Under the pieces are notes generated by a model. It was not told the origin of the DNA, did not search any database, and saw nothing but the letters and a program-made list of their open reading frames with translations. A program made the translations under genes and the position numbers. From Desulfobacteraceae bacterium (GTDB lineage Bacteria > Desulfobacterota > Desulfobacteria > Desulfobacterales > JAABTS01): a stretch of 35,429 nucleotides of DNA. Below, piece by piece: positions 16,403 through 23,432 of the stretch (position 1 is its first letter; every line of letters starts with the position of its first letter). The DNA is taken from positions 1 through 35,429 of the forward strand of contig JAABTS010000051.1 of NCBI GenBank assembly GCA_011389735.1. The letters are read 5' to 3'.

Positions 16403-16514
16403 CACAACGATTCAATCATTCAAACGATTTTTAAAAAACCGGGAAAACCTTAAGTTTTCGAATTTTATTCCTTGACAAATATTTTAACAAGAATTCAAAT
16501 GGTTATTTGCTATC

Positions 16515-16934
16515 CTAATCGGGATCGGGATCGGGATCGGGATCGAATTCAATATGCCTATAAGGATCTATGCTTTCTTTGACGTGATAGCTTGTTCCTC
16601 CCAAGCGACTGACCATTGCAGCAATACGATCTAATTCGATTTTGCGTTCCCGACTTTCTTTCTTATCCAAAGCTTCACCAACCACGAGTACGTCCTGAAT
16701 TGCAGCACATTCCAATGCTGATCCGCGCGCAATTTCGAAATATCGACGTCGATCTGCAATTGTTGACTTGCCGTTTCCTTCCGCAATATTCAATGGAATC
16801 GATTGACTCGCACGCAACCATTGGTCGCGGGCATGACGATGAATTTCTCCAAGATCATTGGCTTTTTTATAGACCCATGCAATATACTCTATTGAGAGGC
16901 GATATACATCTAATTTTTCATGTCCAAGCGCCAT
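16515..16934 (-). CDS. Four-helix bundle protein (S23/Avd-like, TIGR02436 type)
   Basis: A 139-aa, mostly helical protein with the family pattern: HEKLDVYRLSIEYIAWVYK, then DQWLRASQSIPLNIAEGNGK, RRRYFEIARGSALECAA and a last helix ESRERKIELDRIAAMVSRL. Proteins of this family occur in intervening sequences inserted in bacterial 23S rRNA genes (S23) and as Avd accessory proteins of diversity-generating retroelements; a biochemical role for free-standing ones is not known. The last residues, FDPDPDPDPD, are encoded directly by the GGGATC array, so array length changes alter only the tail length. The start codon lies 7 nt from the other array and has no Shine-Dalgarno site, so translation may be controlled by the stem. 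Confidence 0.85.
   Translation of the reverse strand: MALGHEKLDVYRLSIEYIAWVYKKANDLGEIHRHARDQWLRASQSIPLNIAEGNGKSTIADRRRYFEIARGSALECAAIQDVLVVGEALDKKESRERKIELDRIAAMVSRLGGTSYHVKESIDPYRHIEFDPDPDPDPD
16518..16545. repeat. GGGATC hexamer array (left)
   Basis: About four and a half units of ATCGGG in head-to-tail order. On the minus strand the array is the 3' end of the four-helix-bundle gene, coding for alternating Asp and Pro, and it stops directly before the TAG codon. Confidence 0.9.
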
Positions 16935-16940
16935 ATTTTT

Positions 16941-16972
16941 CGATCCCGATCCCGATCCCGATCCCGATCCCG
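16941..16972. repeat. GGGATC hexamer array (right, inverted)
   Basis: Just over five units of CGATCC in the opposite orientation to the array at 16518-16545. It lies immediately 5' of the four-helix-bundle start codon on the minus strand. The two arrays can pair over about 28 bp. Confidence 0.9.
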
Positions 16973-17104
16973 AATTGGATTATCCAAGCAAATTTATGTC
17001 AAGAAAAATTTTTCGAAAACTCCGGGAAAACAAGATAAGTTAAAAAGACATGAACATTCAATCCGGCGGCGGATAACCCCTTCAAGATGCTAAGACGGCC
17101 GGAT

Positions 17105-23130: not shown

Positions 23131-23231
23131 CTACGCCAAAAAAGATCTCCGATACGGCCTGATCAAACCAAATCATATATGACCGGCTCGATTCAAGCTT
23201 GAATTAAATTCCAATTTCAACTATAGGTTTT

Positions 23232-23384
23232 CAGGCATCCTTCATTTCTTGTTTACAGTTTCATCAAAATCGGGATCGGGATCGGGATCGGGATCGGGAT
23301 CGTAATAATTCGATACCGATGCCGATTTCAATACCGATTTGGGAAGTGTAAACTATTTATCAACATTTATGAAAGATGCCGGTT
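23232..23384. repeat. Long hairpin carrying a GGGATC array, without ORF
   Basis: From outside inward: GGCATCCTTCAT (23235-) pairs imperfectly with ATGAAAGATGCC (near 23368-23379); GTTTACA (23251-) with TGTAAAC (23347-23353); AAATCGG with CCGATTT (23333-23339). The inner 5' arm holds the array ATCGGG x5 (23269-23302), and the 3' side holds decayed CCGAT units (23311-23338). It uses the same hexamer as the four-helix-bundle unit at 16453-17021 but encloses only a few bases. Confidence 0.65.
23269..23302. repeat. GGGATC hexamer array (third locus)
   Basis: Head-to-tail ATCGGG units, about five and a half, in the same orientation as the array at 16518-16545. No coding frame is attached. Confidence 0.9.
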
Positions 23385-23432
23385 TTCAAAAATAATATTT
23401 CGCCGGGCGCTGGGCCCGGGTATACAAACATC
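23377..23432. repeat. Half-copy of the dispersed palindrome
   Basis: GCCGGTTTTCAAAAATAATA, TTTCGCCGGGCG and GGGCCCGGGTATACAAAC reproduce one arm and the centre only. It ends 14 bp before the GDT1-family start codon. Confidence 0.55.

Follow-up and report, generated by a model that had tools for sequence, protein, structure and literature searches.

Introduction

What is a gene for a small four-helix-bundle protein doing on its own between two inverted arrays of a short tandem repeat? The question is raised by a locus in 35,429 nt of DNA from a Desulfobacteraceae bacterium (assembly GCA_011389735.1, contig JAABTS010000051.1), the whole of which is called the window below. The protein belongs to the S23/23S-IVP family, whose genes are common and whose function is unknown. 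Members of the family are encoded in intervening sequences (IVSs) of 23S rRNA genes. The Coxiella IVS carries tandem heptamers (GACAGAT, two or three copies and a degenerate one) ahead of the start codon of S23p, has a 28-bp terminal stem and is excised by RNase III; a mobile origin of IVSs has already been proposed, with credit to Ralph and McClelland 1993 (PMC4990558). Avd proteins of diversity-generating retroelements (DGRs) have a homologous structure and resemble PF05635 (PMC10053308). The original prediction for this locus was that of a free-standing, IVS-like unit, either mobile or acting as RNA, in which an RNA stem encloses the gene.

Results

An S23 gene between inverted hexamer arrays

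The S23 ORF of the window is placed between the arrays so closely that its stop end adjoins one of them.

16515..16934, minus strand: S23/23S-IVP four-helix-bundle gene, 139 aa, with an (Asp-Pro)n tail from the 3' array (PF05635, TIGR02436, 2gsc)
16942..16971, minus strand: 5' array of the S23 gene, sense GGGATC x5, 7 nt ahead of the ATG
16518..16547, minus strand: 3' array of the S23 gene, sense GATCCC, inverted copy; starts beside the stop codon and supplies the codons of the DP tail

Read on the plus strand, the arrays are GGGATC x4 (16521-16544, within the 30-nt stretch 16518-16547) and GATCCC x5 (16942-16971). The stretches 16518-16547 and 16939-16968, each of 30 nt and 391 nt apart, are 100% complementary, and the C-terminal codons of the gene read ...FDPDPDPDPD-stop. 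The inverted homology carries on outward, with AGTTTTCGAA and CTTGACA spaced 18 nt start-to-start on both sides (16453/16471 and, inverted, 17021/17003); complementarity between the outer arms, 16453-16484 and 16990-17021, is 78%. Across the ORF, the inverted-repeat score was 30, while the maximum was 16 in 1000 shuffles of its own flanks and 17 (median 9) among 31 other ORFs of the window. The protein scored above the curated cut-offs of PF05635 (E 2.6e-19; 69.8 bits against 33.8) and of TIGR02436, four helix bundle protein (64.8 bits against 24), and matched PDB entry 2gsc with an E value of 5.5e-9. The placement of the ORF exactly between inverted arrays, the outward homology with its 18-bp spacing, the array-encoded (Asp-Pro)n tail and the protein family are thus all as had been predicted from the letters of the locus.

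The unit sits between two SDR genes, outside any 23S rRNA gene. At gathering scores, Rfam found one tRNA and no rRNA across the window, and no family in the element. The protein matched no PADLOC model (0 families at E 0.01), that is, no anti-phage defence family, and no PHROG at E 0.01. The profile-library searches (PF05635/TIGR02436, PADLOC, PHROG) yielded no recognised catalytic domain, and neither a transposase nor a nuclease is encoded in the unit.

Two repeat families carry the arrays in the same genome

When this stretch was used as the query, 84 matches came up in the genome to which the window belongs (6.5 Mb, 477 contigs), and many of the aligned copies ended sharply at 16449 and 17023. 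The arms are thus present at many genomic places, and the mobile-unit reading, which the original prediction had tied to the existence of further loci with the arms, stands. An element had correctly been foreseen here, although its limits (16453-17021) were not those of the dispersed copies. The repeat was named family A.

16449..17023, minus strand: complete family-A element, right end probably 17025; boundaries common to dispersed copies
16449..16477, plus strand: left terminal inverted repeat of family A, CTTAAGTTTTCGAATTTTATTCCTTGACA
16997..17023, minus strand: right terminal inverted repeat of family A, GGAGTTTTCGAAAAATTTTTCTTGACA read on the minus strand
16441..16448, plus strand: left copy of the 8-bp flanking duplication GGGAAAAC
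17024..17031, plus strand: right copy of the flanking duplication GGGAAAAC; an element ending at 17025 would share its last 2 nt with it

The family-A terminus pattern GTTTTCGAAN8CTTGACA had 23 exact matches in the genome and 152 at up to 3 mismatches, compared with 70 for the reversed control; the right end of the family probably includes two more bases, up to 17025. Gene-less copies with a readable middle were of two types: one joins 16449-16649 to ca. 16947/16959-17023 (L014, L018), and the other, shorter one joins 16449 to ca. 16520-16544 with ca. 16941-16961 to 17023 (L028, L032, L035). In the assembly, no more than three genes or gene pieces of the window's S23 kind were found (that of the window, one with a stop and a partial one); since many family-A copies end at contig ends, hidden gene-bearing copies are possible. 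The 8-bp direct repeat GGGAAAAC stands directly outside the window copy, and four gene-less copies with both flanks (L014, L018, L028, L035) have AG and six matching or partly matching bases there, the duplications being 6-bp or imperfect. The family-A duplication is therefore put at 6 to 8 bp. The genus is represented by one genome, that of the window, which leaves no relative for an empty site of the window copy. Two exact family-A termini in opposite orientation, 155 nt apart start-to-start (G000:C213:3742-3920), possibly mark another short relative.

Matches to the arrays alone at further places revealed a second element carrying the same hexamer arrays, family B, which is 129-177 bp long, with lengths mostly in steps of 6, and has the terminal inverted repeat GGCATCYTTCAT...ATGAAGGATGCC. 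Its left end gave 80 matches at up to 3 mismatches, compared with 0 for the reversed control pattern. The target duplication was a perfect 8 bp in 8 of the 21 copies with both flanks (0.25% for random pairs), and identity peaked at length 8. One family-B element, a miniature inverted-repeat transposable element (MITE) with a perfect 8-bp duplication, lies in the window, 6 kb from the S23 unit.

23234..23380, minus strand: gene-less family-B element, GGGATC x5 at 23272-23301, terminal inverted repeat GGCATC..GATGCC
23226..23233, plus strand: left 8-bp target duplication GGTTTTCA of this element
23381..23388, plus strand: right 8-bp target duplication GGTTTTCA of this element

Both families have terminal inverted repeats, multiple copies, no internal transposase and a target-site duplication, as MITEs do. 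They look as if a classical transposase had moved them, and S23 may be a passenger there. The 8-bp duplication and the GGC terminal repeat of family B are features that we take to resemble ISL3; however, the ISL3 transposase (PF01610) was not found in a profile search of the genome and was rejected as the mover of family B.

At another locus (L016), the start of a window-type S23 gene (93% identity) continues through the array into a family-B end. This locus joins the S23 gene to family B, so that one array-S23 module appears in two different jackets. Positions 1-430 of L016, next to the B-jacketed fragment, hold octamer-like repeats (CTCTGTGCCTCTGTG) and a GTTGAAT-type heptamer array. Inverted heptamer arrays, GTTGAAT/ATTCAAC, enclose another S23 gene of the same genome (C353).

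Inverted arrays box S23 genes in many phyla

PF05635 was present in 161 of the 297 genomes of the window's phylum. Forty families were sampled with one S23 gene each, chosen among the high-scoring listed genes whose flanks were usable. The best inverted match was scored between two regions, the 250 nt ahead of the ORF on one side and, on the other, its last 60 nt together with the 250 nt that follow, a score of at least 16 being regarded as strong. Strong inverted flanks were found at 20/40 S23 genes and at 0/155 other ORFs of the same loci. From a cross-phylum scan of the collection of named genomes, the best 80 of 584 relatives were kept; they represent many bacterial phyla, and two of them are from Methanophagales (archaea). 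Of these, 36 of the 76 S23 genes with enough flank had strong scores, compared with 4/198 controls, and one of the four scoring controls (L284) is itself flanked by an array of the S23 type. One of the Methanophagales loci had too little flank, and the other, the sole scorable archaeal locus, scored 13. When both samples, which favour high-scoring S23 proteins, were pooled, inverted flanks were strong at 56/116 S23 loci and direct ones at 13/116, while 4/353 control ORFs had strong inverted flanks. The inverted-array architecture of S23 genes is thus general and not confined to the window. The remaining 60/116 S23 loci scored below 16, showing that the arrays are not always detectable.

One single-contig genome has, within 21 kb, five S23 matches that score similarly and all contain an internal stop (G214:C1:3065483-3086641). 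At another locus (L190, upstream of 3983), the start of an S23 unit, comprising the array and the first part of the gene, is tandemly repeated ahead of an intact gene.

Anatomy of the arrays

Autocorrelation of the flanks of 118 S23 units peaked at lag 7 (0.364 upstream and 0.352 downstream; controls 0.274), with a second peak at 14. A heptamer consensus was obtained on at least one side in 92/119 loci. After rotation, the heptamer units aligned to the cyclic consensus TYAGKRR with 4.07 bits, as compared to 3.11 ± 0.07 for shuffled units. The unit differs from locus to locus; that of the window is a hexamer, unlike the usual heptamer. Where both arms gave a consensus, the two arms had a common unit (up to 1 mismatch) in 43/58 loci, against 3.7% of random pairs, and at 76/116 loci a gene's own arms outscored all of the arms from 40 other loci. 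The arms also have a polarity: among 77 loci scoring at least 14, the upstream arm was richer in G in 67 and in C in 8, with no difference in 2. The median spans were 30.5 and 31 nt (122 arrays); 63 arrays spanned 27-37 nt, 31 were shorter than 27 nt, 9 spanned 38-60 nt and 19 exceeded 60 nt. The upstream array ended a median of 33 nt before the start codon (56 loci), and the downstream array overlapped the end of the ORF in 12/56 loci, as it does in the window. Divergence of the S23 proteins and divergence of the units were weakly linked (Mantel rho 0.087, with 7/500 permutations as high), and co-evolution of the two was set aside.

The unit is inserted as a block

A comparison of occupied and empty sites, the check that had been proposed with the original prediction, was made in relatives. 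Filled and empty versions of six sites were found in cyanobacterial plasmids, and the insert consists of array-S23-array with little or nothing else. At site 1, in Trichormus and Scytonema, the unit stands inside a conjugation operon, and six plasmid records of 97-98% identity lack it (two were read at the junction). The empty sequence is AAAAAGTAATTAACAAATAAATATG and the filled one is AAAAAGTAAT, the unit and GTAATTAACAAATAAATATG, with a 5-bp duplication, GTAAT. Site 2, in Nostoc plasmids, is filled in three records and empty at the junction in four, with TTCTA (ATTCTA in L310) on both sides. One gene further on, at site 3, a different S23 unit with AAAGGGG arrays is present in L315 and absent in four relatives; it has ca. 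40 extra nt after the 3' array, and the duplication is only ATG. Filled and empty versions were also paired in Calothrix brevissima (site 4), where the exact edges are blurred by divergence, in Picosynechococcus (site 5; the unit lies between cas10 and cmr3 in PCC 7003 and is absent in PCC 7002, the edges again being blurred by divergence) and in Aulosira (site 6; the unit lies ca. 39 nt ahead of the upstream gene's stop). With the exception of site 6, the units are placed at the upstream gene's stop codon, before the next start codon. The case of cas6-S23-cas4 in Anabaena sp. 90 was dropped as a clean empty site because the corresponding place in a Dolichospermum relative holds a different sequence.

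At sites 1, 2 and 6, the inserted block is array-S23-array with no further terminal sequence, and the three units are 78-83% alike over the unit only, in unrelated flanks. Gene-less pieces also disperse. The S23 gene of L310 is interrupted at 1085-1256 by a 172-nt piece that is bounded by the same heptamers as the unit and is absent from the S23 genes of L304 and L311. A 196-nt query covering most of this piece matched 95 places, spread over 43 cyanobacterial plasmid records, and the piece has no Rfam family at gathering score. In one genome (G182), the heptamer array of the genome's own S23 unit had 29 matches; the other 39 S23-bearing genomes tested had 11 array matches together, 35 of them having none. 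A clear duplication of 5-6 bp was found at 2/7 plasmid junction pairs (sites 1 and 2), the other five having none or a doubtful one; none was clear at sites 4, 5 and 6 or at the gene-less insertion in L310. A fixed target duplication for S23 units was accordingly rejected.

These filled and empty sites, together with the genomic copies and their target duplications, strongly support the first half of the original prediction, namely a mobile unit, and the S23 unit is almost certainly mobile. Since filled and empty sites differ by array-S23-array and at most little else, the mobile unit has no recognisable transposase.

S23 genes lay in sense with both neighbours at 60/85 loci, as compared to 67/123 control genes (p 0.02); 35/120 loci with no readable neighbour on one side were excluded from the count. 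Strict sense orientation was rejected at this ratio, and units also stand between opposite-strand genes (including L321 and L323). A tblastn search with one S23 protein (L164) gave no match in 50,697 phage records. Three units lie in CRISPR-cas operons: one between cas10 and cmr3 (L318, 1492-1848) and two between cas6 and cas4 (L322, 1495-1863; L324, 1501-1860). These are likely to be hitchhiking insertions.

Discussion

A model for the array-S23-array unit

The array-S23-array unit is inserted as one block at different sites, and its ends are inverted tandem arrays. Gene-less pieces bounded by arrays also disperse, and in the window's genome the module travels inside families A and B as well. 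We propose that this is a small mobile unit in which an S23 ring would serve as the end-binding protein on the arrays, and that a trans-acting enzyme would move the unit; the probability of this reading is put at roughly 55%. Several features point to the arrays as recognition ends: the common unit in both arms, their polarity, the span that they prefer and the fact that array pairs disperse. The chances that S23 itself binds them appear evenly balanced.

The solved relative 2gsc (XCC0516) has 5 chains and is described as a homopentameric toroid (PMC4990558), and by homology the window's S23 is probably a homopentameric ring as well. In such a ring, each subunit may take one short repeat. With a pitch of 7 nt, five AG-centred motifs would cover 31 nt, the usual array length, and this agreement with the observed median is the ground on which one repeat per subunit is proposed. 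This five-site geometry is doubtful in itself; the fit is loose, the window's hexamer, the 31/122 arrays under 27 nt and the 19/122 over 60 nt not matching exactly. Ring proteins of the TRAP type bind evenly spaced (G/U)AG triplets, and TRAP is an 11-mer. The likeness to S23 lies in a ring oligomer and AG-centred repeats at an even pitch, for S23 as a proposed geometry only; the fold and the subunit number differ (a pentamer as against the 11-mer), and binding by S23 is only proposed. S23 would then bring the two inverted arrays together, an enzyme encoded outside the unit would move it in trans, and gene-less copies would use S23 made elsewhere. The uneven duplications argue against a single simple cut-and-paste enzyme for the jacket-free units.

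Alternative explanations

The second half of the original prediction, that the unit acts as RNA, would have the arrays pair in the transcript with the gene in the loop, so that cutting by RNase III or opening of the stem controls expression and complementarity is kept for the sake of the RNA. The arrays of the window do pair in the RNA fold (z -7.5), a stem of this kind, cut by RNase III, is present in 23S IVSs with S23p (PMC4990558), and the nearness of the 5' array to the start codon and the G-rich upstream arm are in keeping with this. However, any inverted repeat would fold in this way. Selection on an RNA stem should favour G.U over A.C, but mismatches between the arms were G.U in 64 cases and A.C in 59 (p 0.72), so that the wobble test does not support control by an RNA stem. 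As gene-less pieces disperse with no gene to control and units stand between opposite-strand genes too, we consider this explanation rather unlikely; the predicted fold held, and a wobble preference did not appear.

It is likewise unlikely that families A and B account for the whole as ordinary non-autonomous repeats of insertion sequences, with S23 and its arrays as cargo that takes no part in movement. Their classical terminal inverted repeats, the 8-bp flanking duplications in family B and in the window copy of family A, and the many copies lacking the S23 gene would fit such an origin, whereas the bare insertions at plasmid sites 1, 2 and 6, the boxing of S23 by arrays across many phyla and the missing ISL3 transposase (PF01610) do not. 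The families resemble MITEs in terminal repeats, duplications, many copies and no transposase seen, but differ from them in carrying inverted short tandem arrays and, in some copies, an S23 gene, and no parent was found (ISL3 alone was sought). A retro-type insertion, in which an Avd-related S23 would escort the RNA of the unit to a reverse transcriptase and the copy would be inserted near gene junctions, seems very unlikely. An S23 relative (L164) matched the PHROG for Avd (E 1.2e-12), junction duplications are variable or absent, and a sense bias exists; the window's genome has reverse transcriptases (7 RVT_1 matches), which makes such a route possible. Against it, none of these matches is on the window's contig (C419), so that, unlike in a DGR, no reverse transcriptase stands beside the Avd-like S23 gene; the modest sense bias could be a matter of survival, and nothing in the data shows an RNA intermediate.

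Relation to intervening sequences and orphan repeats

The rRNA IVSs are among the known systems closest to the units described here. The 23S IVSs with an S23p ORF (Leptospira, Coxiella) have the protein family and an ORF inside terminal inverted repeats in common with the S23 unit, and the predicted likeness of the window unit to them is borne out by the tandem heptamers and the 28-bp stem of the Coxiella IVS (PMC4990558). The window unit has stem-capable inverted repeats around its ORF but is not in an rRNA gene; for S23 units, moreover, insertion is seen from empty sites, tandem-array ends occur in many lineages and gene-less copies are dispersed. A blastn search with E. coli rrlH gave no match in the S23 loci against which it was run, and the comparison with IVSs therefore rests on PMC4990558. 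S23-bearing IVSs are already known; the window observation belongs to a general mobile unit. If a mobile unit with tandem-array ends carries the S23 genes as its cargo, an origin of the S23-bearing rRNA IVSs would be indicated, and one must ask what moves a unit lacking a recombinase gene. The literature search, made in a library of mostly non-subscription papers, found no publication that connects S23 genes with inverted short arrays in a mobile unit.

Short heptamer arrays like the ends of S23 units have been described as orphan repeats: GGGGA(T/C)T in Nostoc and GGGAATC in Xanthomonas, the latter with 70-75 close convergent pairs per genome (PMC4692102), TAACTGA in Beggiatoaceae, mostly just upstream of start codons (PMC4679880), and heptamer repeats in Geobacter (PMC2700814). 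In their accessible parts, these papers give no established cause; those on Nostoc, Xanthomonas and Beggiatoaceae discuss regulation or G-quadruplexes and, in these parts, connect the repeats with no S23 gene, and the term S23 is absent from that part of the Beggiatoaceae paper (PMC4679880). We infer that the repeats of Nostoc, Xanthomonas and Beggiatoaceae are ends of S23 units; if so, an origin can be offered for repeat families long described without a cause. The cyanobacterial STRR are a further family of short heptamer repeats. The figure legend of a CRISPR survey names 23S rRNA IVP among associations of the adaptation module (PMC10910872), and the association would become explicable as insertion into cas operons.

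A wider reading, which we put forward tentatively, is that S23 units form a separate, world-wide class of mobile elements whose sole gene would encode a non-catalytic pentameric ring; at both ends, the ring would read four to five AG-centred heptamers, each subunit taking one. Array pairs without a gene, moved in trans, would have become the scattered heptamers of cyanobacteria, Beggiatoaceae and Xanthomonas, and S23-bearing 23S IVSs would be units that landed in rRNA genes. Nuclease-like GxxExxY genes boxed by inverted arrays, often of 8-9 nt, would be a parallel class. At loci with GxxExxY genes (PF13366, PDDEXK_3; L192-L221), for which the match ends were approximated and 3/30 were dropped for short flanks, the inverted-flank score was at least 16 in 11/27 scorable loci. 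Autocorrelation over 29 PF13366 flanks gave no clear period, which makes the parallel weaker than for S23. Several of the repeats at these loci are 8-9 nt long (ACACGGATT, ACCGCAGAG and CACGAAGTG).
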